The position numbers were made by a program, and so were the translations under genes. Under the pieces are notes generated by a model that saw nothing but the letters and a program-made list of their open reading frames with translations, was not told where the DNA came from and did no database searches. A stretch of 64,000 nucleotides of DNA from Pukyongia sp. (GTDB taxonomy: Bacteria; Bacteroidota; Bacteroidia; Flavobacteriales; Flavobacteriaceae), in contig JASBSY010000002.1 of the NCBI GenBank assembly GCA_030148705.1, forward strand, positions 1 to 64,000, given 5' to 3'. Below are positions 5,462 through 21,712 of the stretch, in pieces (position 1 is the first letter of the stretch; each line of letters starts with the position of its first letter).

Positions 5462-5467
5462 AATTCA

Positions 5468-5523: not shown

Positions 5524-7608
5524 TCAATAAGCCATTATTGCTTCAATCTTTGCTTTTACTTTTTCTACTGAAGGGATCATCGTTTGTTCAAGGGTGCTGT
5601 TCAAAGGAATTGCCGGCATATTCTCAGAGCCGATGATCATAACCGGACCGTCGAGATCCTGAAAACATTCTTCCTGAATTCTGCCCTGTAAGGCTCGGGA
5701 AAAGCTGTTTTCTGAAGGCTCTTCCGTAACTACCAGGCATTTACCGCATTTTTTTACACTCTTCATTACGGTCTCGTAATCCAGCGGGTGAAGCGTTCGA
5801 AGATCCACAACCTCTATCCGGTCCTTCATTCCTAATTCTGCAGCTGCATTCATAGCCCAATGTACTCCCATTCCATAGGTTATGATCGACAAGGTCTCAA
5901 CATCCTCCTGTTTCCAAATCTCCTGTAATACCCAGGCTTTCCCGAAGGGCAGAATATAATCTTCCGCAGGTTCGACCGACGTAGCTCCTTTGGTACCCGG
6001 AACCTTACTCCAGTAAAGTCCTTTGTGCTCAAAGATTACCACGGGATTGGGATCGTAATAGGCGGCTTTCATCAGTCCTTTCAGGTCGGCTCCATTACTA
6101 GGATATGCTATTTTCAGCCCGCGTATATTGGTAACCACGCTTTCAACCGAAGAGGAATGGTAAGGACCTCCGCTTCCATAGGCCCCGATTGGGACTCGAA
6201 GAATCATGGAAACCGGCCATTTTCCGTTCGACAGATAATTGCTGCGACTTACTTCTGTAAATAACTGATTCAGCCCCGGCCAGATGTAATCGGCAAACTG
6301 GACTTCAACAATAGGCTTCAAACCTACAGCGCTCATTCCAACTGTGGAGCCAACAATAAATGCTTCCTGTATTGGAGTATTGAATACACGATTATCGCCA
6401 AACTTCTGTGCGAGCGTAGCAGCTTCCCGAAATACTCCTCCAAGGCGGCCACCTACGTCCTGTCCGTATAACAGACATTCCTTGTGTTTTGCCATTAGCT
6501 CTTCGATCGCAAATAAGGCACAATCGACCATAACAACCTTTTCGGCATTTTCAGGTTCTCTTACTCCGGATTCATGTTCCACAGGGGTTGGTGCAAAATC
6601 GTGGGTGAACAGATCCTCCGGCCTGGGATCCTCGGCGGCTAATGCTTTTTTATAGTGTTCCTTTACCTTGATTTCGCAATCCTGTTCTATTTGTTGAAGC
6701 TCGGATTTCGAAAATCCGTTGTCCAGAAGCAGAGTCTTCATCTTTGGATAGGGATCCCTGGCACGGGATTCTTCCAGGTCATCCCTGTACCATTCCATCC
6801 GGACGCCCGAGGTATGATGATTGAGCAAGGGTACCTTGGCATGCACCAAAACCGGTCTTCGTTCTGTTCTGATCGTATTTATAACTTCCGCTATTGTATT
6901 ATGGCTGGTTTCAAAGTCGGTTCCGTCTATGGTCACCGCTTCCAGGCCATGGAAGCCGGCGGCATATTCGTACGCATTCTGCGCCCTGGTTTCGGCTGCG
7001 TTTGCCGAAATATCCCAGCCGTTGTCCTGAACAAGATAAAGAATAGGCAATTGTTTAAGGGCCGCCATCTGAAAAGCTTCTGCTATCTCACCTTCGGTTA
7101 CTGAAGCATCCCCAAGGGAACACACAACTATTGGTTTCTCCTCCGCAGTCTCCAGGCCTTCTGCTTCCTTGTACCAGAATCCCAGGGCAACACCGGTTGC
7201 AGGAATTGCCTGCATTCCCGTAGCGGAACTCTGATGCGGTATTTTAGGCTTGTCGTCTTCCTTCAGGCTGGGATGACTATAATACGTTCGTCCGCCGGAA
7301 AAGGGATCGTCCCTCTTGGCCAACACCTGTAGCATAAGTTCGTAAGGCTGCATCCCGATTGCCAGCAACATAGAGTCGTCCCTATAATACGGAAATGCGT
7401 AATCCTGGGGTTTTAACTGCATGCCCACGGCAGTTTGAATTACCTCGTGCCCTCTGGACGTAGCATGTACGTACTTCGAAACTGTTTTAAAGTTCTCCTC
7501 GTACAAATGAGTCATAGCCCTGGCGGTACACAGATTTGTAAACGCCTGCTGCAGTATCTTCCTTTCAGGGATTGTCTTGCTCACTTTTATTGTCTTTTCT
7601 TTAATCAT
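5524..7608 (-). CDS. 2-oxoacid dehydrogenase E1, fused alpha and beta subunits (branched-chain type)
   Basis: A 694-residue thiamine-diphosphate enzyme that decarboxylates a 2-oxoacid and passes the acyl group to the lipoyl arm of E2. Residues ~1-340 are the alpha subunit with the ThDP motif as GDA (166-168) and DN (195-196). Residues ~355-694 are the beta subunit (LLYGQDVGG, EVQFADYIWPGLNQL, VDLRTLHPLD). The fused layout is frequent in Bacteroidota. It is the last gene of the 16-gene operon and its start overlaps the ilvE-like gene by 8 nt. By family the substrate would be branched-chain 2-oxoacids. Its place at the end of a phenylacetyl-CoA operon that lacks paaK makes phenylpyruvate an attractive alternative, which is inference. 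Confidence 0.92.
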   Translation of the reverse strand: MIKEKTIKVSKTIPERKILQQAFTNLCTARAMTHLYEENFKTVSKYVHATSRGHEVIQTAVGMQLKPQDYAFPYYRDDSMLLAIGMQPYELMLQVLAKRDDPFSGGRTYYSHPSLKEDDKPKIPHQSSATGMQAIPATGVALGFWYKEAEGLETAEEKPIVVCSLGDASVTEGEIAEAFQMAALKQLPILYLVQDNGWDISANAAETRAQNAYEYAAGFHGLEAVTIDGTDFETSHNTIAEVINTIRTERRPVLVHAKVPLLNHHTSGVRMEWYRDDLEESRARDPYPKMKTLLLDNGFSKSELQQIEQDCEIKVKEHYKKALAAEDPRPEDLFTHDFAPTPVEHESGVREPENAEKVVMVDCALFAIEELMAKHKECLLYGQDVGGRLGGVFREAATLAQKFGDNRVFNTPIQEAFIVGSTVGMSAVGLKPIVEVQFADYIWPGLNQLFTEVSRSNYLSNGKWPVSMILRVPIGAYGSGGPYHSSSVESVVTNIRGLKIAYPSNGADLKGLMKAAYYDPNPVVIFEHKGLYWSKVPGTKGATSVEPAEDYILPFGKAWVLQEIWKQEDVETLSIITYGMGVHWAMNAAAELGMKDRIEVVDLRTLHPLDYETVMKSVKKCGKCLVVTEEPSENSFSRALQGRIQEECFQDLDGPVMIIGSENMPAIPLNSTLEQTMIPSVEKVKAKIEAIMAY

Positions 7609-8671
7609 TAGTATCGATCTTCACCATCCAATTAAACCGATCTTCCAGTTTTCCTGTTTTAATGCCATTGAGGATTGTATTCACCTTCTCACCAATCGGG
7701 CTGGAATCGGACACCTGTATTGTACTCGCTCCATAACCAATCTCCTGGATATAAGCGATACCAACAGCAGTACCGGTACCAAAGGCCTCTTCCAGACTGC
7801 CATCTCTTGAAGCTTCAATTATTTCGTCGATGGAGATCTTCCGTTCGGTTACCTCAAATCCTTCATCTTTCAGGATCGTTATAACACTCAACCTTGTAAT
7901 CCCGTTAAGTACGGCTCCGTCGAGTTCGGGTGTAATAAAGCTCCCGTTTATCTTAAAGAAGATGTTCATGGTTCCCACTTCCTGGATATAATTACGCTCC
8001 AGGGAATCCAGCCAAAGTACCTGGTCGTATCCTTTCGATTTGGCAATCTCGGTTGGCCTGATAGCCGCAGCATAGTTCCCGGCAGCCTTGGCTTCACCGG
8101 TACCACCTTCTGCAGCCCTTATGAATTTCTTTTCGGCCCATAACTTTATTCTTTTACTGAAGAAAGGTCCGGCCGGGGAAGCGATGATAATAAATTTATA
8201 AGTGGTGGCCGCCCGCATCCCGATAAACGGTTCGTCTGCATACATAAAAGGCCTTAGGTAGAGTGCACTTCCTTCCTTCTTCGGAATCCAGTTCCGCTCG
8301 AGCTCCACCAGTACTTTTAAGCCTTGTATAAACAAGTATTCCGGCAATTCCGGCATGCCCATTCGCCGCGCACTGAAATTTAAACGGGCGGCGTTCTGTT
8401 CCGGCCGGAAGAGCAGCGGATTTCCACCGGGATCCATAGTGGCTTTCATCCCTTCAAATATGGCCTGGCCATAGTGCAGTGCCATGGCTGCGGGGTGAGT
8501 AGGTATTTTTTCCAGGGGTTCGATGCGAGGATTTTTCCAGGCTCCGTCCACAAACTCACAAATAAACATATGATCGGTAAATGTGCGTCCCAGCGGGATA
8601 TTGTCGAAATCCACGCCGGCTACCCTTGAATTTTGAGTCTTATTGATTTTTATCGAATCTGAAGATGTCAT
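7601..8671 (-). CDS. ilvE: Branched-chain amino-acid aminotransferase-like enzyme (fold-type IV)
   Basis: A 356-residue PLP enzyme from ATG 8671; a GTG two codons upstream is less likely. It shows the BCAT pattern: HYGQAIFEGMKA, R-PF near residue 140, the PLP lysine in GEAKAAGNYAAA (about K195), QVLWLD, and EVGTMNIFF. It moves an amino group between Leu/Ile/Val, or related hydrophobic amino acids, and 2-oxoglutarate. Located between E2 (27-34 nt gap) and E1 (8 nt overlap), it would supply the 2-oxoacid substrate of that complex. Some BCATs also accept phenylalanine, so it may provide phenylpyruvate here; the sequence alone does not settle this. Confidence 0.9.
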   Translation of the reverse strand: MTSSDSIKINKTQNSRVAGVDFDNIPLGRTFTDHMFICEFVDGAWKNPRIEPLEKIPTHPAAMALHYGQAIFEGMKATMDPGGNPLLFRPEQNAARLNFSARRMGMPELPEYLFIQGLKVLVELERNWIPKKEGSALYLRPFMYADEPFIGMRAATTYKFIIIASPAGPFFSKRIKLWAEKKFIRAAEGGTGEAKAAGNYAAAIRPTEIAKSKGYDQVLWLDSLERNYIQEVGTMNIFFKINGSFITPELDGAVLNGITRLSVITILKDEGFEVTERKISIDEIIEASRDGSLEEAFGTGTAVGIAYIQEIGYGASTIQVSDSSPIGEKVNTILNGIKTGKLEDRFNWMVKIDTND

Positions 8672-8704
8672 GTTCACAATTTTGATAATCTACTGATATT
8701 TCAC

Positions 8705-9982
8705 TTATATTTTTCTCGATCGATCGAATCCTTCCATTTCATCTGCAATTCGCCTGAGAAATGAGCCTGCCAGGTATCCGTCCACGATCCTGTGGTCGAA
8801 AGACAGTGACAGATACATCATCTGCCTGATCTCTATATGGTCGCCATCCTCTCGCTCCATGACCTCAGCCCGTTTCTTGATAATCCCCGTCGCCAGGATA
8901 GCAGCTTCAGGCTGATTGATAATGGGCGTGCCCATAAGGCTTCCAAAGGTGCCGACATTGCTTATTGTAAATGTACTGCCACGGGTATCCTCGGCCGAGA
9001 GTTTTCCTTCCCTGGCCTTTAACACCAGTTCATTAGTGGTAGCCGCAAGTTCGGGCAAGGATTTCTTATCGGCATTTTTTACCACCGGCACGATCAGGTT
9101 TCCGGAAGGTAAAGCCGTTGCCATACCAATATTGATCTCTTCCTTGACAATTATATTCGATTCGTCCATGGTAGAATTAATCATTGGAAAGGCCTGTATC
9201 GCATTCGCTATGCACTCGATAAACAGCGGAGTAAACGTTAATTTCTCTTTGTATTTTTTCTGAAAGGCACCTTTTACTTCATTTCGCCATTCCACCATAT
9301 CGGTCAGGTCGGCTTCTACATAAGCCGTCACATGGGGGGACGTATGTTTGCTGAAGACCATATGGTCTGCGATCATCTTACGCATTCGATCCATTTCGAC
9401 AATCTTCCCGGTCCCCTTATCGAAGGTTAGGTCGGGGATTTTAAACCCGGCGCTTTCGCTCACCGGTTGTGCGAACTTATATGGCCGGCCATCGGAAATA
9501 TAGCCCATCAGATCACTCTTCCTTAATCGACCATCCTTGCCGGTGGCGGGAATACGTGCCAATTCTTCATAACTGATATGATGTGTACGCGCGATCTTAT
9601 CGATGAGCGGGCTCACAAACACATTTTTATTTACCTTGAAATTTGAAGCGGGGACTGTCTTTTTTGAAGGTCGTGACGCCGGTTTTGGTTTAGCTTCCGA
9701 CTGCGGGACTTCCGTTTTTACGGGGGTCGATTTTGTCTTTCCGTCCGACTTAATGATTGCAATAGTTTCGCCAATCTCCACCACGTCATTTGGCTCGTGT
9801 AACAATTCGACAATCTCTCCCGAAATGGTTGAGGGCACCTCCGAATCTACCTTATCGGTTGCCACCTCCAGTAGGATCTCATCGTATTCAACAGTATCCC
9901 CTACCTCTTTAAACCATTTAATGATGGTGGCCTGGGTAATACTTTCGCCCATCCTGGGCATTTTAAATTCCAATTCAGCCAT
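8705..9982 (-). CDS. Dihydrolipoamide acyltransferase (E2) of a 2-oxoacid dehydrogenase complex
   Basis: A 425-residue E2. An N-terminal lipoyl domain has the lipoylated lysine in EVATDKVDSEVP (K44). It is followed by a Pro/Lys/Ala linker, an E3-binding domain (~120-165, PLIDKIARTHHISYEEL) and the acyltransferase domain ending with the catalytic motif SLSFDHRIVDG (His397, Asp401). It transfers the acyl group from the E1 reaction to CoA. The start codon overlaps the stop of paaY by one base. No E3 (lipoamide dehydrogenase) is in the operon, so it must be shared with another complex. Confidence 0.93.
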   Translation of the reverse strand: MAELEFKMPRMGESITQATIIKWFKEVGDTVEYDEILLEVATDKVDSEVPSTISGEIVELLHEPNDVVEIGETIAIIKSDGKTKSTPVKTEVPQSEAKPKPASRPSKKTVPASNFKVNKNVFVSPLIDKIARTHHISYEELARIPATGKDGRLRKSDLMGYISDGRPYKFAQPVSESAGFKIPDLTFDKGTGKIVEMDRMRKMIADHMVFSKHTSPHVTAYVEADLTDMVEWRNEVKGAFQKKYKEKLTFTPLFIECIANAIQAFPMINSTMDESNIIVKEEINIGMATALPSGNLIVPVVKNADKKSLPELAATTNELVLKAREGKLSAEDTRGSTFTISNVGTFGSLMGTPIINQPEAAILATGIIKKRAEVMEREDGDHIEIRQMMYLSLSFDHRIVDGYLAGSFLRRIADEMEGFDRSRKI

Positions 9983-10578
9983 CAGTCTCTTTTGAATTCA
10001 TTTAATGTTTTATAAAAATCCTCCTGCGGCGGACGATTCTCCGGAATTGAACGCAAGGGCTCTGTTTCTTTAAGCGATTGGTGACAATCCGCAGGCAATT
10101 GCTGGTACAACCGTGTTCCGGCGGTTTTCCATTGTATCATTTCGTCTGAAATGTCTTTAACGGCTTTGGCAGGATTTCCGACGATGAGCTTTCTTCGGTC
10201 GAATTTGGATTCAGCCTTAACAAAACTCATGGCTCCTACAATACATTCTTCGCCAATTTCGGCATCGTCCATAATTACACTGTTCATTCCAATAAGACAA
10301 TTTCGTCCCAGGTTCGCACCGTGAATCACGGCACCATGACCCACATGGGCGCCTTCCTTTAAGACAATGCTCTTTCCGGGAAACATATGTACTGTACAAT
10401 TTTCCTGTACATTAACTCCATTCTCGAGAATTATCTCACCCCAGTCACCTCTGATCGCCGCCCCGGGCCCGATATAACAGTTTTCGCCAATGATCACATT
10501 GCCGGTAACAGCCGCCAGCGGATGAACAAAGCTGGATTCATGCACCACAGGGGTATGTCCTTTGAAGGCGTATATCAT
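9982..10578 (-). CDS. paaY: PaaY-like hexapeptide protein (gamma-carbonic anhydrase fold, thioesterase)
   Basis: A 198-residue left-handed beta-helix protein with hexapeptide repeats (VIIGENCYIGPGAAIRGDWG, GHGAVIHGANLGRNCLIGMN) and histidines suited to metal binding. PaaY of the phenylacetate pathway is a thioesterase that releases CoA from dead-end ring-hydroxylated CoA thioesters and has the gamma-carbonic anhydrase fold. Position inside the paa operon supports PaaY rather than a general carbonic anhydrase. It abuts E2 (1 nt overlap) and the enoyl-CoA hydratase (6 nt gap). Confidence 0.85.
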   Translation of the reverse strand: MIYAFKGHTPVVHESSFVHPLAAVTGNVIIGENCYIGPGAAIRGDWGEIILENGVNVQENCTVHMFPGKSIVLKEGAHVGHGAVIHGANLGRNCLIGMNSVIMDDAEIGEECIVGAMSFVKAESKFDRRKLIVGNPAKAVKDISDEMIQWKTAGTRLYQQLPADCHQSLKETEPLRSIPENRPPQEDFYKTLNEFKRD

Positions 10579-10584
10579 GGCTGC

Positions 10585-11337
10585 TTATTTAAATCGTTTA
10601 AGGGTTTCTTTAGTAAAATCTGATAAAACCAATCTGCCGCTAATGGCTGCCCTTTCTGCAAGCAGTTTGTCCCAGTCCTCGGTGCCTTTCCAAAATACTT
10701 TCTTCATCTCGCTCATGGCGTCGGGGTTATAGGTGCAAAGTTGCTCGGCCAACTTTTGAACTGCTTCATCCAATTCTTCGGTGGTATCAAAGACCTGTGC
10801 ATACAGCCCTTTTACTCGTGCCCAATCCGCATCGTAAAAGGAATTGGCATCGATGGCGATCTGTGACATACCGCTAAGCCCGAGTTTACGTTCTACTGCA
10901 GGCCCGACGACAAAAGGCCCAATTCCTACATTCAATTCACTTAGCTTAATACTGGCAAATTTGGTGGCCAAACAATAATCGGTAGCCGATGCCACTCCAA
11001 CTCCGCCTCCTACGGTTTTTCCCTGTACCCGTCCGATGATGAACTTGGGGCATTTCCGCATGGCATTGATGACATTGGCAAAACCGCTAAAGAATTGCCT
11101 TCCTGTCTCGGCATCATCGATATTTATCAGTTCGTTAAAACTCGCCCCGGCACAAAAGGTCCTGTCACCCCCGCTTTTGAGGATTACAACCCGTACATCT
11201 TCATTCTTCCCGGCCATTTCGATCATTTCGGCCAGTTTCGCCAGCAGGTCGCCGGGCAGGCTGTTGTGAGCCGGATGAAAGAATTCTATGGTGGCTATCT
11301 GCTTGTTTATATATTCCTTTACATAAGGTGGTGTCAT
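10585..11337 (-). CDS. Enoyl-CoA hydratase/isomerase family protein (PaaF candidate)
   Basis: A 250-residue crotonase-fold protein with the oxyanion-hole segments TFCAGASFNEL and GRVQGKTVGGGVGVASATD, and a glutamate in SIKLSELNVGIGP at the place of the first catalytic Glu of hydratases. The other crotonase of the operon (paaG) lacks that Glu. The pathway needs a 2,3-dehydroadipyl-CoA hydratase (PaaF) and this is the only candidate in the cluster, so PaaF is likely. It sits 14 nt after paaZ. Confidence 0.8.
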   Translation of the reverse strand: MTPPYVKEYINKQIATIEFFHPAHNSLPGDLLAKLAEMIEMAGKNEDVRVVILKSGGDRTFCAGASFNELINIDDAETGRQFFSGFANVINAMRKCPKFIIGRVQGKTVGGGVGVASATDYCLATKFASIKLSELNVGIGPFVVGPAVERKLGLSGMSQIAIDANSFYDADWARVKGLYAQVFDTTEELDEAVQKLAEQLCTYNPDAMSEMKKVFWKGTEDWDKLLAERAAISGRLVLSDFTKETLKRFK

Positions 11338-11351
11338 AATACTGTTTTCAA

Positions 11352-13847
11352 TTAAATCAATCCGAATTGTTCAAAATGATGGTTTAAATGCTTTCGTTCC
11401 AACAGGTACCATTCGAAACGGTTTAATGGCCCGAATACCACATTCTTGGTACGTGCCTCGGGGTTTTCTTCAAAGTACTGAATGTAAGTTTCCCTTGCTT
11501 CCAGCATCTTTGCCTTGGCAGTCTCCAGATCGGGGTGTTTTAATTTTTCCATCTTTGCGCGCTCGCGAAGCGGAAAGTCATACCCGCGTGGCATCTTCTG
11601 GTAATTGTAGAGGGTTGAATGTACTTTTTCAAGGATCTTCTCCGGCGTAGCGATCTCGAAATCCTGTATTTCCCCTGAAGCAATCCTGTAGGTATATTCA
11701 AGATGTTCCACCATTTGCTGCGGAGTTAGATCTCCCCAGGCAGGAGTAGCATCGGGGGTGAGTTTAGCCAGACTCTCCTTTATTTTTTCCGTAGGCAGTT
11801 CCACCAGATTGGTGAGTTTCTTCTGAACCATGGTCAGGACGGTTACTATTGCAACCAGTTCGTCCTTACTGTCGAATACCTCTCCATACCATTTCACAAT
11901 TCCGCTGGGTAATTCGGTACCTCGCTGCTCCCTGTCTATCTTTTGCTTGCAGGTTAATCTTACGTAAATAGTATCGTTGTGATAAAGCGGTCTGAGAAAA
12001 CGGCATTCTTCCAAACCGTAGTTTGCTGCGACCGGGCCTTTGTTGGGATACACGAATAAGCCTGCCGCCGCTGCCAGGATAAAATATCCGTGGGCAGTAC
12101 GTTTTTCAAAAATACTTCCGTCCAGGGAAGTGATATCGGTATGGGCATAGAAGTGATCCCAGGTTAGGTTAGCGAAGTTTACAATATCGCCGTCGGTAAT
12201 CGTACGCTTATGCGTTTTAAGACTCATTCCCGCTTCGATATCCTCCCAGTGATACTGGAAAGGATGCTTTTCGGTTTCCTTATAGGCTCCTTTCGGCTGA
12301 TAAATTCCCGTTACTTCTGTAAGTGTGGTTGGAGTTCCCTGTACCGCACATCGCTGCAGGTAGTGTTTTATTCCTCTCAAACCTCCCATTTCTTCGCCTC
12401 CCCCGGCTCTTCCCGGACCCCCGTGAATGAGATTTGGTAAGGGAGAACCGTGACCGGTACTCTGTTTGGCATTTTCACGATTTAGGACTAGAATCCTCCC
12501 GTGATGGGAGGCTGTGCCAATTACATATTCCCTGGCAATATTATCGTCGAAGGTGGCTATTGATGAAACCAGTGATCCTTTCCCCATACGGGCGAGTTCG
12601 ATTGCTTCGTCCATATTGCTGTACGGCATTAGCGTGCTTACGGGCCCGAAAGCCTCGATAACATGGGCTGCCTCATTCTCGAACGGATTATCTTCCCTCA
12701 GTAGGATAGGTTTCATAAAGGCTCCTTTACTTGCATCGGCCCCGATGGTTTCTACATTTTCCAGGTCTCCATAGACCATTTCGGCAGTCTTTGCGATCTT
12801 AGCCACCTGATCACGTACCGATTGCCGTTGGCTCTCGCTAACAAGCGCACCCATCCTAACTTCCTGCAAGCGGGGATCGCCTATGGTTACCTTATCCAGT
12901 TCCTGTCCGATGGCTATCTGCACATCTTCCACCAGGTTTTGAGGTACTATGATCCTGCGTATGGCCGTACATTTTTGTCCGGCCTTGACGGTCATCTCTT
13001 TGCGAACCTCTTTGATAAACAGCCCAAATTCCGGAGTTCCCGGAACAGCATCTTCGCCCAATATGGAGGCGTTAAGGGAATCGGCTTCCATTGTGAATGG
13101 CACAGATTCCTCGATTATCCGCGGGTGATTCTTTAGTAATCTACCCGTAGAGGCAGATCCTGTGAAGGTCACTACATCCTGAGATTGAGTGCCGTCCAGT
13201 ATGTTTTTTGCAGTACCGCAAATAAGTTGAATTGCACCTTCGGGAAGGATTTTCGAAGCTATTATCTCCCTTACCACCGCTTCAGTAAGATAGGCAGTCT
13301 GAGGAGCCGGCAGGACCACTGCGGGCATCCCGGCCATCCAGTTTACGGCACATTTCTCTAGCATCCCCCAAACCGGGAAATTAAATGCGTTGATGTGTAC
13401 CGCCACTCCTTGTCGGGGTACCATGATATGATGGGCCATAAACCTTCCTCCCCGGGACAGGTCGATGGGATCGCCTTCCACATGATAAGATTGGTTAGGG
13501 AATAGCTTTCTTAGGGAAGCATTGGCAAACAGGTTACCAAAGCCTCCTTCAATATCGATCCAGCTGTCTATTCGGGTAGCTCCCGTCCTATAACTAAGTT
13601 CATAGAACTGGTCCTTCTTTTTGGTGAGATAGAGGGCCAGTTTCTTCAGCATCAAGCCGCGCTCCTGGAAGGTCATCTTCCGGAGCACCTCGCCCTTATC
13701 GCGCCCGTACTGTAAGATGGACGGGATATCCAGCCCTTCAACAGTTACACTGGTAAAAACTTCTCCGGTAACCGAATCGGCAACCGGCGTTCCGTCACCG
13801 CTGCCTTCAATCCATTTGCCGGTTACGTAATGTTGTGTCTTATTCAT
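11352..13847 (-). CDS. paaZ: PaaZ: oxepin-CoA hydrolase / semialdehyde dehydrogenase with an added DinB-like C-domain
   Basis: An 831-residue protein, about 150 longer than E. coli PaaZ (681). Residues 1-~515 are the aldehyde dehydrogenase that oxidises 3-oxo-5,6-dehydrosuberyl-CoA semialdehyde, with Glu254 (FTMEADSLN) and Cys293 (KAGQKCTA) in the catalytic places. Residues ~530-680 are the MaoC-type ring-opening hydratase with D564 and H569 (TWDHFYAHTD). Residues ~685-831 are extra: a helical domain with H715 and an HxxxHxxQ motif (H820, H824, Q827) as in the DinB/DUF1569 superfamily. The extra domain's role is unknown. The gene starts 3 nt after the SDR stop. Confidence 0.95.
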   Translation of the reverse strand: MNKTQHYVTGKWIEGSGDGTPVADSVTGEVFTSVTVEGLDIPSILQYGRDKGEVLRKMTFQERGLMLKKLALYLTKKKDQFYELSYRTGATRIDSWIDIEGGFGNLFANASLRKLFPNQSYHVEGDPIDLSRGGRFMAHHIMVPRQGVAVHINAFNFPVWGMLEKCAVNWMAGMPAVVLPAPQTAYLTEAVVREIIASKILPEGAIQLICGTAKNILDGTQSQDVVTFTGSASTGRLLKNHPRIIEESVPFTMEADSLNASILGEDAVPGTPEFGLFIKEVRKEMTVKAGQKCTAIRRIIVPQNLVEDVQIAIGQELDKVTIGDPRLQEVRMGALVSESQRQSVRDQVAKIAKTAEMVYGDLENVETIGADASKGAFMKPILLREDNPFENEAAHVIEAFGPVSTLMPYSNMDEAIELARMGKGSLVSSIATFDDNIAREYVIGTASHHGRILVLNRENAKQSTGHGSPLPNLIHGGPGRAGGGEEMGGLRGIKHYLQRCAVQGTPTTLTEVTGIYQPKGAYKETEKHPFQYHWEDIEAGMSLKTHKRTITDGDIVNFANLTWDHFYAHTDITSLDGSIFEKRTAHGYFILAAAAGLFVYPNKGPVAANYGLEECRFLRPLYHNDTIYVRLTCKQKIDREQRGTELPSGIVKWYGEVFDSKDELVAIVTVLTMVQKKLTNLVELPTEKIKESLAKLTPDATPAWGDLTPQQMVEHLEYTYRIASGEIQDFEIATPEKILEKVHSTLYNYQKMPRGYDFPLRERAKMEKLKHPDLETAKAKMLEARETYIQYFEENPEARTKNVVFGPLNRFEWYLLERKHLNHHFEQFGLI

Positions 13848-13850
13848 AAT

Positions 13851-14453
13851 TTATGCTCTTATCCGAAGGATTTCTCCGTTAATTTTTCCTTTAACTGATT
13901 TCACATATCCATCAACGACCTTTCGCATTGATACGGGAGTATTTCCCGGGAAGTAATTCTTATACTTTTCATATGCATCTTCTACCAAATCGGCCGATAC
14001 CACATTAATCCGATGTCCGTTCTTTAATTCAAGAGCAACTGCTTTCACAAAACTCTGAATAGCTCCATTTACCATGGCGGCACTTGTGGTCATATCTACG
14101 GGTTCGTCGGCCAGAATTCCGGTCGTTAAGGTGAACGAACCCCCCGGATTTAAAAAGGATCTGCCAAATCGCACCAGATTAACCTGCCCCATCATCTTAC
14201 TTTTAATCCCAATGTAAAAATCCTCTTCCGTCAAATTATCGAACTTCTCCCATTTCGCATCCCCTGCAACATTCACAATAGCGTCTACAGCCCCTGTGTT
14301 CTGAAACATTTCCATTATTGATTCGGAAGAAGATATGTCTACCGTGACATCACCAGAATTTCTCCCGGCAATGAGCACCTCGTCCGATTCGGAAAACCGC
14401 TCTGTGATCTTTCGGCCTATGGTACCATTACCTCCTATTATTAATATTTTCAT
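13851..14453 (-). CDS. Short-chain dehydrogenase/reductase family protein
   Basis: A 200-residue Rossmann protein with the nucleotide motif IIGGNGTIGRKI at residues 5-16 and NVAG at ~62. It is shorter than classical SDRs (~250), and the usual YxxxK active site is not evident (the region reads SAAMVNGAIQSFVKAVA, so the tyrosine is missing). It lies in the paa operon between the thiolase and paaZ. No step of the known pathway needs it, so its substrate is unclear. It may be an atypical, catalytically altered SDR. Confidence 0.8.
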   Translation of the reverse strand: MKILIIGGNGTIGRKITERFSESDEVLIAGRNSGDVTVDISSSESIMEMFQNTGAVDAIVNVAGDAKWEKFDNLTEEDFYIGIKSKMMGQVNLVRFGRSFLNPGGSFTLTTGILADEPVDMTTSAAMVNGAIQSFVKAVALELKNGHRINVVSADLVEDAYEKYKNYFPGNTPVSMRKVVDGYVKSVKGKINGEILRIRA

Positions 14454-14480
14454 ATGATCCGGCCCTTGAAACGAGCGATT

Positions 14481-15695
14481 TTATCGTTGGTTAATATTTT
14501 CAATAATAGCCGCATATCCCTGTCCTACACCTACACACATGGTTATAAGGGCGTAGCGTTTTTTCTGTTCTTTTAATTCCAATGCTGCTGAAAAGGCAAT
14601 GCGGGTTCCCGTAACGCCAAGCGGATGCCCGATAGCAATAGAGCCACCATTGGGATTGATCCTCGGATCGTCATCGGCAAGACCCCACTCCCGTATACAG
14701 GCAAGAGCCTGGGAGGCGAAGGCTTCGTTTAGTTCGATCACATCCATGTCTTGCATGGTTAGTCCGGCCTTTTCCAATGCCTTATTACTGGCTTCAACCG
14801 GCCCTATCCCCATAATTCGCGGTTCTACACCCACTACGGCCGAACTCACGATCCGGGCAAGCGGCTTTAGTCCATATTTCTTTACCGCTTCTTCGGAAGC
14901 AATAATGGTAGCAGCCGCGCCGTCATTTAAGCCCGAGCTGTTTCCGGCTGTAACACTACCATCTTTTTTAAAGGCCGGACGCAGTTTTGCCAGGACCTCT
15001 TTGGTTGTATTTGGTTTAATGAATTCGTCTTCGGAAAAGATTAAGGGATCCTGTTTCCTCCTTGGAATTTCAACATTCACGATTTCCTTCGAGAGGCGGC
15101 CACTCTTTTGGGCTTTGGCGGCTTTCATCTGACTGTGATATGCAAAGGCATCCTGGTCTTCCCTGTTGATATTGTGTTTTTCAACCAGGTTTTCGGCCGT
15201 ATTCCCCATTCCGTCGGTACCGTACAGATCGTGCATTTTCTGGTTGACAAAGCGCCACCCGAAACTGGAGTCGTACATTTTTGCATCCGTGCCATAAGCC
15301 GAAGAAGGCTTGGCGATCACATAAGGCCCACGGGTCATATTCTCTACTCCGCCACTAATAAACAAATCTCCGTCGCCGGCCTTGATGGCGCGATTGGCGT
15401 GGATTATGGCCGAAAGCCCGCTGCTGCACAGTCGGTTGACTGTTTCACCGGGCACGGTGAATGGCAGGCCTGCCAGCAGCAGCGCCATACGTGCAACATT
15501 CCTGTTGTCTTCACCGGCCTGGTTGGCACAACCCAGGATAACATCGTCGATGGCGTCGGTGGGAATTTCCGGGTTCCGGTTTACAATTTCCCTTATCACC
15601 AATGCCGCCAGGTCGTCTGTTCGTACCGAACTTAAAGTTCCCTGATAACTCCCAATTGGAGTCCTGATCCCGTCTATTATATATGCTTCTTTCAT
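14481..15695 (-). CDS. paaJ: 3-oxoadipyl-CoA/3-oxo-5,6-dehydrosuberyl-CoA thiolase
   Basis: A 404-residue thiolase. Catalytic residues are visible: the nucleophile Cys in VNRLCSSG (~residue 90), His in GHPLGVTG and the second Cys in [10 protein letters not shown] near the C-terminus. N-terminal [15 protein letters not shown] and the length match PaaJ/PcaF thiolases, which cleave 3-oxoadipyl-CoA to succinyl-CoA and acetyl-CoA and also act on the C8 intermediate. It is one base from the paaI gene. Confidence 0.93.
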
Positions 15696-15696
15696 A

Positions 15697-16107
15697 TTAT
15701 TCTTCCCAGTCTTTTGATGTTCTGTAGACCACTCCTTTAAAGAGGGCTACGATCTCATCGTTTCTTTTCACTTCAATTATATTGAATCCAACTTTTGTCT
15801 TAGTCACGTCTATCACTGCCTCGGCAACCAGATAGTCGCCTTTTTCGAGGGCGGTAATATGGTTGATGGAAGTTTCGATGGATACGGCATATTTGCCATG
15901 GGTATTGGCAGCAAAACCAAAGGCCGTATCGGCCAGGGAATAACTTATTCCTCCGTGGGCCTTCCCCATACTGTTCAGCATTTCTTCTCTAACCCGCATA
16001 GCAAGCCTGCATCTCCCAACTTCGCACTCAAGTATCTCTATCCCCAGCCACTGACTGAAGGGATCAAGGGACAGCATCTTATACGGTATTTTAGTTCCTT
16101 CCAACAT
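15697..16107 (-). CDS. paaI: PaaI hotdog-fold thioesterase
   Basis: A hotdog acyl-CoA thioesterase of 136 residues from ATG 16107 (MLEGTKIPYK), one base after the paaH stop. An ATG at 16131 would add eight residues and overlap paaH by 23 nt. The core DPFSQWLGIEILE...NSMGKAHGGISYSLADTAFGFAAN carries the HGG-xx-x-L-xD motif (catalytic Asp in LADTAFG). PaaI hydrolyses hydroxylated phenylacetyl-CoA derivatives, thereby freeing CoA when the pathway stalls. Confidence 0.92.
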   Translation of the reverse strand: MLEGTKIPYKMLSLDPFSQWLGIEILECEVGRCRLAMRVREEMLNSMGKAHGGISYSLADTAFGFAANTHGKYAVSIETSINHITALEKGDYLVAEAVIDVTKTKVGFNIIEVKRNDEIVALFKGVVYRTSKDWEE

Positions 16108-16108
16108 C

Positions 16109-17269
16109 TTAATAGAATGTTTTATTTTCACGCTGCATTCTTCTTAGCAAGGGCGAACAGCGATATCGGTCCTCGTGATACTCTTCGTAAAGGCCGTCTA
16201 ATTTGGAAACACACCAGTCGATGCCTTTTTCATCAGCCCAGGCCAGTAAGCCTTTGGGATAATTAACCCCTTTGGTCATCGCATTGTCTATGTCCTTTGC
16301 TGAAGCTATCTTCCAGAACAGCGCATCTGCGGCTTCATTGATGAGCATAACAAGTACGCGATCTACAATAGCCTGTGCGAGGGTAGTATCTTCAACAGGT
16401 TCAGGGTTGTCTGCGCCTTCCCCGTAGTTGTAATATCCTCTTCCGCTCTTCCTTCCCAAATACCCGGCTTCACTCAAGCGCTTTTGGGTAAAGGAGGGTT
16501 TGTACCTTGGATCGCAATAAAAGGCATGAAAAACCGATTCGGTTACGGTATAATTTACATCATTACCAATAAAATCCATTAATTCGAAAGGGCCCATTCT
16601 AAAGCCTCCAACAGTCTTCATCGCCCAGTCTATGGTTGCGACATCTGCAATTCCCTCGTCATAAATTCGCAAAGCCTCTCCATAGAAAGGCCTGGCCACC
16701 CGGTTTACGATAAAGCCCGGGGTGTCTTTGGTAACCGCTACGGTTTTGCCCCATGAAGCGATGGTGTCTACCGTTGTTTTAAGCGTTTGTTCGGAAGTTT
16801 GAACGGCAGGAATTACCTCAACCAGTTTCATCAGGGGTGCCGGGTTAAAAAAATGGATCCCGATACAGCGCGAAGGATCGGTTAATGCACCGGCTATGGA
16901 TGCAACTGATAAAGAGGAGGTATTCGTTGCGATTATCGCCTTGAGTGAAAGCAAGGATTCCAGCTCTTTGAACAGGTTTTTCTTTATGTCGAGGTCTTCG
17001 ACGATCGCTTCTATGGTGAGGTCGCAATCGGCTAAGTCGTTCAGGTTTGATATATAGGTTATATTATTCTGAATGCGATTTTTCTCTGCATTATCGATCC
17101 TTCCCTTTTCGATAAGTCGATCCAGGATCTTGTTCAGTGAATCCCGGGATTTCTGAAGGGCTTCCGAACTCAGGTCGTACAGTTGCACCTCATTACCGGC
17201 CGTGGCCGCAACCTGTGCGATACCGCTGCCCATTGTTCCCGAACCTATGACACCAACTTTTTTAATCAT
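16109..17269 (-). CDS. paaH: 3-hydroxyacyl-CoA dehydrogenase (3-hydroxyadipyl-CoA)
   Basis: A 386-residue NAD-dependent dehydrogenase. The N-terminus has the dinucleotide motif GVIGSGTMGSGIAQ (residues ~6-19). The catalytic His-Glu pair is seen in GIHFFNPAPLMKLVEVI (~140), followed by two copies of the C-terminal helical domain (GFIVNRVARPF; KGVNYPKGLLAW). In the paa pathway it oxidises 3-hydroxyadipyl-CoA to 3-oxoadipyl-CoA. It abuts paaG directly with no spacer. Confidence 0.93.
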   Translation of the reverse strand: MIKKVGVIGSGTMGSGIAQVAATAGNEVQLYDLSSEALQKSRDSLNKILDRLIEKGRIDNAEKNRIQNNITYISNLNDLADCDLTIEAIVEDLDIKKNLFKELESLLSLKAIIATNTSSLSVASIAGALTDPSRCIGIHFFNPAPLMKLVEVIPAVQTSEQTLKTTVDTIASWGKTVAVTKDTPGFIVNRVARPFYGEALRIYDEGIADVATIDWAMKTVGGFRMGPFELMDFIGNDVNYTVTESVFHAFYCDPRYKPSFTQKRLSEAGYLGRKSGRGYYNYGEGADNPEPVEDTTLAQAIVDRVLVMLINEAADALFWKIASAKDIDNAMTKGVNYPKGLLAWADEKGIDWCVSKLDGLYEEYHEDRYRCSPLLRRMQRENKTFY

Positions 17270-18052
17270 CTATCTGCCTTTAAAGTTTGGTTTTCTTTTC
17301 TCCACAAAAGCCGCTACCCCTTCGGCGTAATCCTCGCTTTGAGCGGAAGCGATCTGAAGTTCAGATTCCATGACTAGCTGCTCTTCCAGCGAGTTGGACA
17401 TACTCTTATTGAGCAGTCGTTTGGTATAACCCAGCGCCCGGGTTGGCATTTTTGCCAGGGTTTCTGCCGTTTGCCTAACATCCGATTCGAAGTATGCCGA
17501 ACTACATAACTTGTAGACCATTCCCAGTTTTTCGGCTTCTTCTGCCGAGACTTTTTCGCCCAACATCATCAGTGCCGATGCCTTTTGAAAGCCTATCAGC
17601 CTGGGCAGGAAATAGGTTCCCCCACTGTCGGGAACCAGGCCTATCTTACTGAAAGCTTGTATAAATGAGGCGTGCTCTGAAGCTATTACCACATCACAGG
17701 CCAGGGCGATGTTAGCTCCTGCGCCGGCTGCAACCCCGTTTACCGCGGCCACGACCGGCTTCTCCACGGCTCTTATCCTTATAATTATCGGGTTATAATG
17801 CTCTTCCAGTATCTTTTTAAACCCGGGGTTTAGGTCCGGACTGGTTACTTCTTTCAAATCCTGGCCTGCGCAGAAGGCCTTTCCCTCTCCTGTAATAACA
17901 ATAGCCTTGACATTTTCATCCTCTGCACAGAGGTCCAGTTCTTCCTGGAAAAGCAGTGCCATTTCCCGGTTAAAGCTATTAAAAACATCCGGCCGATTCA
18001 ACCGAAGGTAGGCAACATTATTCTCTATATTCTTTATGATGCTACGGTCCAT
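17270..18052 (-). CDS. paaG: PaaG: 1,2-epoxyphenylacetyl-CoA isomerase
   Basis: A crotonase-fold isomerase of 260 residues from ATG 18052 (MDRSIIKN), 2 nt after the paaD stop; an ATG at 18067 would overlap paaD by 13 nt. Motifs: AFCAGQDLKEV and NGVAAGAGANIALACD (oxyanion hole) and FSKIGLVPDSGGTYFLPR, where the Asp is the catalytic acid of PaaG and the hydratase glutamate is absent. It turns the ring epoxide made by PaaABCE into the oxepin-CoA opened by PaaZ. Confidence 0.93.
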   Translation of the reverse strand: MDRSIIKNIENNVAYLRLNRPDVFNSFNREMALLFQEELDLCAEDENVKAIVITGEGKAFCAGQDLKEVTSPDLNPGFKKILEEHYNPIIIRIRAVEKPVVAAVNGVAAGAGANIALACDVVIASEHASFIQAFSKIGLVPDSGGTYFLPRLIGFQKASALMMLGEKVSAEEAEKLGMVYKLCSSAYFESDVRQTAETLAKMPTRALGYTKRLLNKSMSNSLEEQLVMESELQIASAQSEDYAEGVAAFVEKRKPNFKGR

Positions 18053-18054
18053 AT

Positions 18055-18558
18055 TTATTTCAAACATTTAAAATAATCGAAGGGTTCTTCACAGTCGTTG
18101 CACTGAAATAGTGCCTTACAGGCGGTGGAACCAAACTGACTCACCAGGCGGGTATTGGTACTACCGCAATTGGTGCATTTCACTAATTTCTTATTTCCCA
18201 GTAATGCGGCTTTATCGGCCGATTCCTCCAGGGGCGGCGCTATTCCGTAAGCTTCCATCTTCCGCTTACCTTCCTCACTGATCCAATCGGTAGACCATGC
18301 CGGGGACAGGACCAGGTCAATTTCCGCCTCTTTGCCAATCGCTTTGAACGCTGCTTTCAGATCGTCGCCAATTACATCCATGGCCGGACAGCCGGAATAG
18401 GTAGGGGTTAACTTGATATAAACCTTACCATTCTCCTCTACCGCTTCCCGAATCACCCCCAGGTCGAGTACCGTTAGTACAGGTATTTCCGGGTCTGACA
18501 CTTTGCGCAGTACCGGCAAAAGATGTTTATCGATATGTGGTGCCAGGTCTACCGTCAT
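18055..18558 (-). CDS. paaD: PaaD (PaaJ): maturation factor of phenylacetyl-CoA epoxidase
   Basis: A 167-residue protein with an N-terminal MIP18/DUF59 domain (VSDPEIPVLTVLDLGVI; TYSGCPAMDVI) and a C-terminal zinc ribbon (CTNCGS ... CNDCEEPFDYFKC). PaaD-type DUF59 proteins assist iron or iron-sulfur centre assembly in the PaaABCE complex. It is 3 nt after paaC and next to paaG. Confidence 0.93.
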   Translation of the reverse strand: MTVDLAPHIDKHLLPVLRKVSDPEIPVLTVLDLGVIREAVEENGKVYIKLTPTYSGCPAMDVIGDDLKAAFKAIGKEAEIDLVLSPAWSTDWISEEGKRKMEAYGIAPPLEESADKAALLGNKKLVKCTNCGSTNTRLVSQFGSTACKALFQCNDCEEPFDYFKCLK

Positions 18559-18561
18559 AAC

Positions 18562-19317
18562 TTACCAGTTCATATTAGGATAGGATCGCTGCATATATTG
18601 CAGTTCGGTGAGCAGGTATCCCATATGTTCAGAATGTATACCCTCCTTTCCTCCTTTTTGAAAGTATTCCTGTTCGGGAACTGTTAGCGTGGCCTCTTGC
18701 AGCAGTTCCGTTACGGTATTGTAATACGTATCTCTAAGTTGGCTCACATCCACTCCAATTCCCTGCCCGATCATTTCGCGGTCGGCCTTAGTGAGGTGGA
18801 AAAGTTCGTCCGTGTAGCGCCAAAGGTCGTCCACGGCCTGCTGCATACGTTCGTTACTTTCGGCAGTACCATCCCCCAGGCGTTTAACCCAGTCGCCCGA
18901 AAACCTCCGGTGATAGCTAACCTCTTTGATTCCTTTCTTCGCGATGGCCGCCAGCATTTCATCTTTACTGTTTTGAAGCTCCTGCATCAGCAACAAATGG
19001 AATTCATCGAAAAGATATTGTCTGACGATCACAAAAGCGAAATCGGTATTGGGTTGTTCTACCAGGAGTACGTTTCTATATTCTCTTTCTTCTCTCAACA
19101 TGGCCACATCGTCCTCGGTCTTAACTCCTCCTGCCAGTTTAGCAGCATATTGATAATAACTGCGTGTTTGTCCGAACAGGTCGAGCGCAATGTTAGTAAG
19201 GGCGATATCGGTTTCCAGGGTAGGCCCGTGACCACATAGTTCGCCCAGTCTCTGGCCGAGGATTAGGGAATTGTCTGCAATTCCAAGAATATATTGATAA
19301 AGGTCTTCGTTTTTCAT
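18562..19317 (-). CDS. paaC: PaaC: structural subunit of phenylacetyl-CoA 1,2-epoxidase
   Basis: A 251-residue ferritin-like subunit (LGIADNSLILGQRLGELCGHGP; EDVAMLREEREYRN; KEVSYHRRFSGDWVKRLGDGT). PaaC pairs with PaaA in the oxygenase core but lacks the full di-iron ligand set and mainly serves a structural role. Its start is 42 nt after paaB, the longest gap in the core part of the operon. Confidence 0.95.
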   Translation of the reverse strand: MKNEDLYQYILGIADNSLILGQRLGELCGHGPTLETDIALTNIALDLFGQTRSYYQYAAKLAGGVKTEDDVAMLREEREYRNVLLVEQPNTDFAFVIVRQYLFDEFHLLLMQELQNSKDEMLAAIAKKGIKEVSYHRRFSGDWVKRLGDGTAESNERMQQAVDDLWRYTDELFHLTKADREMIGQGIGVDVSQLRDTYYNTVTELLQEATLTVPEQEYFQKGGKEGIHSEHMGYLLTELQYMQRSYPNMNW

Positions 19318-19359
19318 AATCTGAACGATAGGTTCCTGTTTAGAATACAGGATACTGTT

Positions 19360-19644
19360 TTACATGTGTTTTACCTCATCCGGCAGGTCGTAGAAGGTAG
19401 GATGTCGATAGATCTTATCCTGTGCCGGTTCGAAAAGTTCACCGTTATCCGCTGGGTTTGAAGCCGTAATATATTTGCTTTCCACCACCCAGATACTCAC
19501 CCCTTCATTGCGTCGGGTATATACATCCCTGGCGTTCTCAAGTGCCATCTCGGCATCTGCGGCATGCAGACTACCAAAGTGACGATGCTCCAGTCCGTTC
19601 TTTGAACGCACGAAAACTTCCCATAATGGCCAATCTTTCTTCAT
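19360..19644 (-). CDS. paaB: PaaB: small subunit of phenylacetyl-CoA 1,2-epoxidase
   Basis: A 94-residue protein with the typical PaaB pattern: W-x-L-W-EVFVRSKNGLEHRHFGSLHAADAEMALENARDVYTRRNEGVSIWVV. It joins PaaA-PaaC heterodimers in the epoxidase complex. It lies 11 nt from paaA. Confidence 0.95.
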   Translation of the reverse strand: MKKDWPLWEVFVRSKNGLEHRHFGSLHAADAEMALENARDVYTRRNEGVSIWVVESKYITASNPADNGELFEPAQDKIYRHPTFYDLPDEVKHM

Positions 19645-19655
19645 ATCGTATGTTT

Positions 19656-20612
19656 TTAACTCGCTTTCGCGACTTTCTTAGTTTGTTGTTTGTCGGCATA
19701 CGCCATGGCCGCGTCTCTAACCCAGGCTCCGCGCTCCCAGGCACTCACCCTGGCTTCAAGGCGTTGTTTGTTGCAGGGCCCGTGGCCTTTCACCACCTGC
19801 CAGAACTCATCCCAATCGATCTCTCCAAAGTCATAATGCCCGGTCTCTTCGTTAAACTTAAGGTCCGGGTCGGGAACGGTAATTCCCAAAATATCAGCCT
19901 GGGGTACTGTCTGATCGATGAATTGTTGTCGAAGCTCATCGTTTGTCTTCCGTTTTAGTTTCCACTTCATGGACTGTTCGGTATGGGTGGATTCGGCATC
20001 GGTTGGCCCGAACATCATCAAGCTTGGCCACCACCATCGGTTCAGCGCATCCTGTGCCATGGCTTTCTGTTCCGGCGTACCCTTGCATAAAGTGAGCATG
20101 ATCTCGTAACCTTGTCGCTGGTGAAAACTCTCCTCCTTACAAACACGCACCATAGCCCGTGCATATGGCCCGAAGGAAGTATTGCAGAGCGGCACCTGGT
20201 TGATAATCGCAGCCCCATCCACCAGCCAACCTATGGCGCCTATGTCGGCCCAGGTAACGGTGGGGTAATTGAAGATAGAAGAATACTTCGCTTTCCCGCT
20301 GTGTAATTGTTCATATAACTCTTCCCTGGAAATCCCCAAGGTCTCACAAGCGCTATAGAGGTAAAGACCGTGTCCGGCCTCATCCTGAACTTTGGCCAGT
20401 AATGCGGCCTTCCTTCTTAAGGAGGGCGCCCTTGTAATCCAGTTCCCTTCCGGCAACATTCCCACTATCTCGGAATGTGCGTGCTGGGAGATCTGCCTAA
20501 TATGCGTCTGCCGATACTTCTCGGGCATCCAGTCTTTGGGCTCAATCTTTTCGTCTCTTGCAATGCGGGCTTCGAAGATCGCATCCAGATTTTTTACTTC
20601 CTTTTCGCTCAT
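19656..20612 (-). CDS. paaA: PaaA: catalytic di-iron subunit of phenylacetyl-CoA 1,2-epoxidase
   Basis: A 318-residue ferritin-like oxygenase subunit. Iron ligands are expected in [13 protein letters not shown], the [13 protein letters not shown] motif (E-x2-H, ~residue 75) and the second pair in [16 protein letters not shown] (E-x-x-H type, ~165). It epoxidises the ring of phenylacetyl-CoA using O2 and electrons from PaaE. It begins 10 nt after paaE. Confidence 0.96.
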
Positions 20613-20622
20613 AATCTATGTT

Positions 20623-21696
20623 TTAAACATCAAAATCTACTTTTACTTCGTCAGTTACCGGAACTGCCTGGCAACTTAACACATAATCCTGTGCCACCTC
20701 ATGGGCTTCCAGGGCGTAATTAACTTTCATCTCTACTTCCCCTTCCAGGATCTTACATTTGCAGGTGCTGCACACCCCGCCTTTACAGGCAAATGGCAGA
20801 TCGGCTCCTGCGCCTAGGGCGGCATCCAGTATATTGTCGTAATCGCTAGTCATTGTAAAGTGGAATTCCTTGCCACCATCTACAATGGTGACTTCCACGC
20901 CTTCTACATTTTGTTGAGCCAGTCGTTCTGCCCTTAGTTTGTCCTCTTCCGAGAGACCGGTTACGAACAGTTCGAAATGCACCAATTCTTTAGGAAGCCC
21001 GGCTTCGACCAGGTAATTCCCAACATACTTTACCATCTCCTCCGGCCCGCAAAGAAACACTTCACTGGTATCGGGGATATCGATAAAAGTCTTGCAGAGT
21101 ACGGCCATGCGATCGTCGTCGAAACGCCCGTTAAACAGCTCTATATCTCTTCTTTCCTTCGTTAGGAAATAATAAATTTCAAGCCTTCCGAAATAAGCAT
21201 TTCTAAGCTGCTCCAATTCTTCCTTAAAGATAATGGATTTGGCCGTTCTATTCACGTAAAACAGCTTACAAGTGGAATTGGGTTCGGTAGCCAGGTGGGT
21301 TTTTATCATGGAGATAATTGGCGTAATCCCACTTCCGGCTGCAAAGAACAAGTAGTTCTTAGGTTTCTCCGGATTTGGCTTTACCCCGAAGGTTCCGCTA
21401 GGCGCCATCACTTCCAGGGTATCCCCCGGCTTTAAGGTAGTGTTCACGAAGGATGAAAACTTTCCTTCCGGTATGAGTTTTACTGCCACTTTCCACTCAC
21501 GGTCCATCGGACTGGTACACAGGCTATATGACCGACGTACATCTTCGCCGTCGATTTCGGTTTTTAATGTTAGATGCTGTCCCTGTTTAAATTCGAATTC
21601 TTCGTACAGGGATTCGGGAATATCGAAGGCAATTACAGAACAGTCTGAAGTTTCCTTGTAAACATCCTTAACCTTTAATTTATGAAATACAGCCAC
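20623..21696 (-). CDS. paaE: PaaE: ferredoxin reductase subunit of phenylacetyl-CoA epoxidase
   Basis: A flavin/[2Fe-2S] reductase that passes electrons from NADPH to PaaA. It has an FAD-binding domain with RRSYSLCTSP, an NAD(P) domain (FFAAGSGITPIISMI) and a C-terminal plant-type [2Fe-2S] domain with CKGGVCSTCKC and a later Cys in VLSCQA. The frame has no early ATG. It can start at TTG 21705, but GTG 21696 (MAVFHKLKVKD) fits the family N-terminus and the promoter better, so I chose GTG. It is the first gene of the operon. Confidence 0.94.
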   Translation of the reverse strand: MAVFHKLKVKDVYKETSDCSVIAFDIPESLYEEFEFKQGQHLTLKTEIDGEDVRRSYSLCTSPMDREWKVAVKLIPEGKFSSFVNTTLKPGDTLEVMAPSGTFGVKPNPEKPKNYLFFAAGSGITPIISMIKTHLATEPNSTCKLFYVNRTAKSIIFKEELEQLRNAYFGRLEIYYFLTKERRDIELFNGRFDDDRMAVLCKTFIDIPDTSEVFLCGPEEMVKYVGNYLVEAGLPKELVHFELFVTGLSEEDKLRAERLAQQNVEGVEVTIVDGGKEFHFTMTSDYDNILDAALGAGADLPFACKGGVCSTCKCKILEGEVEMKVNYALEAHEVAQDYVLSCQAVPVTDEVKVDFDV

Positions 21697-21712
21697 TAAT
21701 TCCAATTTTTTG

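Follow-up and report, generated by a model that had tools for sequence, protein, structure and literature searches.

How can a phenylacetate degradation (paa) operon be fed if it carries no gene for phenylacetate-CoA ligase (PaaK)? The question is raised by a stretch of 64,000 nucleotides from Pukyongia sp. (contig JASBSY010000002.1, positions 1 to 64,000; hereafter the window), which belongs to contig 16 of a genome of 2.89 Mb and 99.6% completeness. By paaZ, most of the nearest named relatives of this genome are Flavobacteriaceae. In the list of its open reading frames (ORFs), 16 consecutive minus-strand ORFs occupy positions 5524–21705 in the transcription order paaE, A, B, C, D, G, H, I, J, short-chain dehydrogenase, paaZ, crotonase, paaY, E2, aminotransferase and E1, the last being a fused E1 component of a 2-oxoacid dehydrogenase. 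The largest intergenic gap is the 42 nt between paaC and paaB, and the pairs E1/aminotransferase, E2/paaY, paaI/paaH and paaG/paaD overlap. An earlier reading of these letters (the sequence-only reading) had described 16 tightly packed genes, the core phenylacetyl-CoA steps (A, B, C, D, E, G, Z, J, H, I, Y and a PaaF candidate) and a final trio of E2, IlvE-type aminotransferase and E1; the packing was borne out by the ORF list, the core steps by NCBIfam, some of them below cut-off and the PaaF candidate with no specific family, and the trio by NCBIfam and Pfam.

The central phenylacetyl-CoA pathway (PaaABC(D)E epoxidase, PaaG, PaaZ, PaaH and PaaJ) is present. PaaA, B, C, D, E, PaaZ and PaaJ exceeded their curated NCBIfam cut-offs; PaaG, PaaH, PaaI and PaaY remained below those of their exact families, PaaH exceeding that of a broader family (Table 1). 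With the canonical phenylacetate hybrid pathway (paaABCDEFGHIJK, paaZ), the operon shares PaaABCDE, G, Z, H, J, I, Y, the PaaF candidate and a PaaR-type site; it differs in having no PaaK and in carrying an aminotransferase, E2 and fused E1 at its end.

The paa pathway is generally taken to begin with the ATP-dependent activation of phenylacetate by PaaK. We conclude that the window very probably holds a phenylalanine degradation operon, in which a dedicated 2-oxoacid dehydrogenase takes the place of phenylacetate-CoA ligase at the point of entry. In this scheme, phenylalanine would be converted to phenylpyruvate by the operon aminotransferase. The fused E1 would decarboxylate phenylpyruvate on thiamine diphosphate and hand the resulting phenylacetyl group to the E2 lipoyl arm, from which E2 would transfer it to CoA; a presumably shared E3 would reoxidise the lipoate with NAD+. 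The predicted products are phenylacetyl-CoA, CO2 and NADH, with neither free phenylacetate nor ATP involved, and the phenylacetyl-CoA would enter PaaABCDE, PaaG, PaaZ and beta-oxidation directly. The same route had been proposed in the sequence-only reading, and the comparisons below strongly support it.

Absence of PaaK and co-inheritance of E1 with PaaA

A search of the Pukyongia genome with the PaaK model returned three matches, all below the cut-off, the best with 184 bits against 646. This best match (L001) was rejected as PaaK; it is FlxY, the flexirubin ligase (677 bits, cut-off 520), and is adjoined by a C45 acyltransferase. The genome therefore lacks the canonical PaaK-started pathway, and the absence of an AMP-forming phenylacetate-CoA ligase, first noted in the window, holds genome-wide. 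The AMP-binding model found four proteins: AcsA (above cut-off), a FadD-like protein, a MenE-like protein (the latter below cut-off) and FlxY. A remote PaaK-like protein (L002) scored 46 bits with the PaaK model and reached no cut-off. As a separate observation, FlxY and the C45 acyltransferase stand with a run of same-strand ORFs at L001 and L140 (G000:C2), likely a flexirubin cluster; a paper on marine flavobacteria names, as members of the aryl-polyene cluster, a 6-aminopenicillanic acid acyltransferase and also a ligase resembling PaaK (PMC5932025).

Co-inheritance was counted for PaaA (above its cut-off), E1 and PaaK in evenly drawn samples of genomes of at least 90% completeness: 219 genomes from 201 genera for the family and 296 genomes for the class. 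E1 was scored as present at 74% identity or more in the family and at E values below 1e-110 in the class. PaaK was scored as present at 450 bits or more, since true flavobacterial PaaKs score 558–581 bits, below the curated cut-off of 646; PaaK scores left a gap from 196 to 558 bits in the family and from 192 to 459 in the class. The lists behind the counts were copied by hand, and their PaaA totals (75 and 219) match those given by the search tools.

PaaA was found in 75 of the 219 family genomes. The paa-type E1 occurred in 73 of these 75 vs. none of the 144 genomes without PaaA, and 73 of the 75 had no true PaaK; the two that did (G079 and G087) carried it inside or beside the paa cluster. 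E1 and PaaA shared a contig in 68 of 73 genomes and lay at most 25 kb apart in 66. A few of the 73 E1 matches were partial. It had been suggested beforehand to check whether relatives keep E1 when paaK is missing, and nearly all of them do. The class gave a similar picture, with PaaA in 219 of 296 genomes and E1 in 214 of the 219 vs. nine of the 77 without PaaA. True PaaK was restricted to 15 of the 296 genomes, seven of them with PaaA, and all seven had E1 too. Among the 212 PaaA-containing class genomes without PaaK, 207 kept the dedicated E1.

Gene order was compared at 80 paaZ loci, 68 of which extended at least 7.5 kb downstream: E2 was present in 66 and E1 (at least 500 bits) in 65. Neither was found downstream of paaZ in L059 and L064; the E1 match in L048 stayed under 500 bits because the locus ends, and the E1 reading frame of L049 is broken. 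Outside the family, 15 class loci (L111–L125), chosen mainly for an E1 far from PaaA, were read for context. In five of them (L114, L115, L116, L118 and L123), paaZ, the PaaF candidate or paaJ was only a few genes away from E1, and in two (L111 and L112) E1 came directly after E2. L113 is cut at a contig end, and a thiolase in L124 (35%) and a PaaE-like protein in L125 (40%) were left uncounted.

Operator and regulation

The PaaR-type sequence CTAACRNNYGTTAG occurs once in the Pukyongia genome, at the head of the paa operon. It was found within approximately 130 bp upstream of paaE in all 53 loci that include this region, and such sites numbered 56 in the whole 1.59 Mb of the 80 paaZ loci. What we take to be a Bacteroidota-type −7 box, TAGTTTTG, overlaps the operator in the window, and what we assume to be the Bacteroidota promoter pattern (TTG-N17-23-TAnnTTTG) overlaps the operator region in 37 of the 53 loci. 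A palindrome scan upstream of the TetR-family gene gave nothing consistent, and no NCBIfam model matched the TetR protein above cut-off. With this gene adjoining paa and an operator that departs at a single base from the PaaR motif of Thermus, CNAACGNNCGTTNG, as given in passages of PMC6651687, the operon has the makings of a PaaR regulon. Thermus PaaR is released by phenylacetyl-CoA (PMC9493321, in excerpt), and a PaaR-type TetR repressor would govern the whole set in the window from its one operator.

Two species of one other genus (G207 and G009) have the paa set split into units, with PaaR-type sites near the paaE-A unit, before paaZ and, for E2-E1, 18 nt ahead of the E2 frame. This and the conserved gene order uphold the claim that E1 and E2 belong with paa; their co-transcription, which seems probable, was not settled by the terminator scan. 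That scan found 23 sites vs. 18.8 expected, some of them within the operon, the hairpin behind E1 being one of the 23, and a sigma-70 scan gave 17 promoter-like sites vs. 22.9 in shuffled sequences. As neither count exceeds chance, both scans are uninformative by themselves.

The operator also bears on whether some other enzyme (the FadD-like ligase, FlxY, L002 or a CoA-transferase) might activate free phenylacetate, with E1-E2 employed otherwise. Candidates exist, namely the FadD-like L085, with no family above cut-off among the matches listed, and L002, and CoA-transferases and ADP-forming ligases lay outside the ligase search. FlxY-range PaaK-like proteins, however, are missing from 49 of the 75 PaaA-containing family genomes, and no ligase accompanies the single PaaR-type site of the Pukyongia genome, unlike in L056 (Mesonia phycicola), which has a true PaaK with a PaaR-type site starting 45 bp ahead of it. 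It had been recognised in advance that a paaK under the same operator would refute ligase-free entry; the only site heads the operon, and there is no PaaK. We regard activation by another enzyme as highly improbable.

At some loci a second type of regulator was seen. A gene of the Lrp/AsnC type stands divergent to E2-(aminotransferase)-E1 in L107 (12900–13373), L015, L032, L048, L056, L071, L073, L082 and L083; in L071 it occupies the place where E2 would follow, and the locus ends there. It is possible that this regulator serves as an amino-acid sensor for the entry module. Lrp/AsnC-type regulators also control branched-chain bkd operons.

Substrate of the operon E1

The sequence-only reading had offered the breakdown of leucine, isoleucine and valine as a plainer, co-regulated alternative. 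On such a view, E2, aminotransferase and E1 would form a branched-chain 2-oxoacid dehydrogenase with its aminotransferase, for that purpose or for iso-branched fatty acids, and would merely be co-regulated with paa. In its favour, the nearest solved E1 structures are those of branched-chain and related 2-oxoacid E1s, the aminotransferase fits the IlvE-II model, and decoupled E2-E1 copies stand by the Lrp-type regulator. What makes this alternative less likely is that the genome has a further fused E1 and a further IlvE besides those of the operon. The second fused E1 (L092) is 29% identical to the operon E1 and belongs to a widespread type, approximately 32% identical, found in 108 of the 144 family genomes without PaaA (best E below 1e-70; counted by hand). 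The operon aminotransferase had matches of 62–75% in six of 19 other genomes, always beside a paa-type E1, and a separate IlvE-type protein, 39–49% identical to it, was present in all 20 genomes tested, including the Pukyongia genome (G000:C5:47137, 40%). Since the general fused E1 and IlvE are separate proteins, the operon E1 and aminotransferase are extra, paa-linked copies. Independently of this, a third E1-like protein of 820 aa (L135, G000:C12:83501-88500) is approximately 25% identical over the beta part.

Further evidence came from aligning 88 distinct paa-type E1s (65 from paaZ loci, 22 from other genomes and that of the window) with Thermus E1b; reading frames no longer than 600 aa (L004, L049 and L110) were left out. 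The E1 domains listed in Table 1 and the catalytic and cofactor residues His131 alpha, Asn204 alpha, Glu60 beta and His129 beta, kept in all 88, place the protein among 2-oxoacid dehydrogenase E1s. The substrate pocket of Thermus E1b, which we take to consist of F66, Y95, M128 and H131 of alpha and Y86 of beta, is altered at two of these five residues: Phe66 is replaced by Val and Met128 by Tyr in all 88, with Tyr95 and Tyr86 beta unchanged, so that the paa type reads V, Y, Y, H and Y and departs from the Thermus branched-chain pocket. The widespread fused E1 (nine sequences) keeps Phe66 and has Met128 replaced by Arg and Tyr95 by His. An altered yet invariant pocket would fit one dedicated substrate, and it may accommodate an aromatic ring. 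Compared with branched-chain E1 (Thermus 1um9, Pseudomonas 2bp7), the paa type shares the E1 domains, catalytic residues and an E2 partner, but it is fused alpha-beta, has the altered pocket and is inherited together with PaaA, being absent from the 144 family genomes without it. No branched-chain degradation genes were found among the 15 neighbour proteins annotated from the class loci, the other neighbours being unannotated. Overall, a branched-chain role appears quite improbable.

Several observations weigh against phenylalanine degradation through a dedicated E1. The aminotransferase was present in only 30 of the 68 paaZ loci, and outside the family E2 usually lies away from E1; at eight of the 15 loci, E2 and the counted paa genes are all missing from the vicinity of E1. 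Two PaaA-containing family genomes (G090 in 100 contigs and G179 in 130 contigs) and five in the class (all in at least 120 contigs) lack both E1 and PaaK, and the match is interrupted by a stop in two of the 73 E1s of the family. Conversely, nine class genomes keep E1 without PaaA; six of these are split into at least 100 contigs, yet completeness is put at 100% for G284 and G311. Three of the nine belong to one family (f50: G276, G309 and G338), possibly reflecting another use of E1 or a recent loss. FlxY-range PaaK-like proteins occur in 26 of 75 PaaA-containing vs. 23 of 144 other family genomes (p = 0.002), a mild link, far below that of E1. Some decoupled E2-E1 units lie by an Lrp/AsnC-type gene; a gene of this type is divergent to E2 in eight of the 80 paaZ loci, as well as in L107, L108 and L110–L112. 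The GDG-type motif reads GDA in 86 of the 88 E1s.

The dehydrogenase might also accept arylpyruvates broadly (phenyl-, 4-hydroxyphenyl- and indolepyruvate), with only phenylacetyl-CoA passing through paa, or might feed a product such as tropone. Ferredoxin-linked enzymes of the same step do take arylpyruvates (PMC5109826), and in other bacteria tropones derive from paa intermediates (PMC7497051), according to passages of these papers; against this, the degradative set through to the thiolase is present and conserved, and the operon holds no biosynthetic genes. We see little chance at all of such a broad or biosynthetic role and retain phenylpyruvate as the probable substrate.

The single steps of this proposed phenylalanine route have precedents, here taken from excerpts. 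In Streptomyces pristinaespiralis, PglB/PglC is a pyruvate-dehydrogenase-like complex said to convert phenylpyruvate to phenylacetyl-CoA; it is biosynthetic (phenylglycine), has separate alpha and beta chains, lies outside a paa operon and is likened here by description, not by sequence (PMC7089894). Direct conversion of phenylpyruvate or arylpyruvates to the corresponding arylacetyl-CoA with no free acid is described for IOR of Pyrococcus and Desulfococcus (PMC5109826) and for VOR of Clostridium sporogenes (PMC13290082), both ferredoxin-linked, unlike the proposed NAD-linked complex. Phaeobacter inhibens, of another phylum, brings phenylalanine into paa via phenylpyruvate and phenylacetyl-CoA, skipping phenylacetate, by an enzyme that the passages leave unnamed (PMC7497051). 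IOR was rejected as the source of phenylacetyl-CoA by a search confined to its alpha subunit (TIGR03336). The Pukyongia genome had no match; among 60 of the 75 PaaA-containing genomes 24 had matches, none of which reached the cut-off (highest score 101 bits, for a partial match in G117). IOR is therefore unlikely here.

An account of a PaaK-less paa operon with E1/E2 was not found in a search of open-access literature, subscription papers being mostly outside it, nor was a dedicated, nearly class-wide catabolic version of the route; PMC9239090 concerns an E2 inhibitor. A 2026 survey of 6,536 genomes, in the passages available, sought the pathway around PaaK genes and describes its complete form as uncommon among Flavobacteriia and Cytophagia (PMC13186573). 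We consider it rather probable that in most of the class (presumably Bacteroidia) paa is by origin a phenylalanine/phenylpyruvate pathway, in which a PaaA-linked phenylpyruvate dehydrogenase replaces the ligase and PaaK is a rare addition in few lineages; PaaK-anchored surveys would therefore miss most such pathways. If so, free phenylacetate should be neither a substrate nor a released product of these bacteria. For many bacteria with paa, the pathway would then begin with an amino acid, at a saving of ATP, with a gain of NADH and with no free phenylacetate formed; the annotation of genomes would call for a new rule and a new E1 subfamily.

Features of the window

Table 1. Features of the paa locus and its immediate surroundings, in window coordinates; bit scores refer to the models named.
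Feature	Position	Strand	Remarks
TetR-family regulator, 189 aa	21811..22380	-	PaaR-like by position and nearby site; adjoins paaE in many loci
PaaR-type operator CTAACAAACGTTAG (operon sense)	21723..21736		Sole occurrence in the genome
paaE, epoxidase reductase	20623..21705	-	TIGR02160, 421.1 bits (cut-off 420.8)
paaA, epoxidase catalytic subunit	19656..20612	-	TIGR02156, 542 bits
paaB	19360..19644	-	TIGR02157
paaC	18562..19317	-	TIGR02158
paaD	18055..18558	-	TIGR02159
paaG, isomerase	17270..18067	-	TIGR02280, 301 bits (cut-off 345)
paaH, 3-hydroxyacyl-CoA dehydrogenase	16109..17269	-	PRK08268 above cut-off; TIGR02279 below, 487 bits (cut-off 669)
paaI, thioesterase	15697..16131	-	TIGR02286, 102 bits (cut-off 119)
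paaJ/pcaF, 3-oxoadipyl-CoA thiolase	14481..15695	-	TIGR02430 above cut-off
Short-chain dehydrogenase	13851..14453	-	PRK07578 above cut-off; unmatched in many relatives
paaZ, ring-cleavage hydrolase/dehydrogenase, C-terminal extension	11352..13847	-	TIGR02278, 883 bits
PaaF candidate (crotonase)	10585..11337	-	Adjoins paaZ in most loci
paaY	9982..10578	-	TIGR02287, 234 bits (cut-off 320)
E2, lipoyl acyltransferase	8705..9982	-	Lipoyl Lys (ATDKVDSE) and catalytic DHRIVDG present
IlvE-II-type aminotransferase	7601..8677	-	Above cut-off; second copy besides general IlvE; phenylalanine as putative substrate
Fused E1 alpha-beta, 2-oxoacid dehydrogenase	5524..7608	-	PF00676, PF02779 and PF02780; phenylpyruvate as putative substrate
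Terminator-like hairpin just 3' of E1	5467..5491	-	Detected on both strands

Some features of these genes stand apart from the question of entry. Nearly 190 residues of PaaZ beyond its MaoC match hit no Pfam family, and relatives align over the full length. The PaaF candidate had no specific NCBIfam family above cut-off among the 25 matches listed; a crotonase of this kind adjoins E1 in L114 and L115. Downstream of the operon, at positions 2929–4911, lies a urocanate hydratase-like gene with approximately 95 extra N-terminal residues ahead of its HutU match. A gene of 660–667 aa, possibly of the same kind, stays near E1 in L106–L108.

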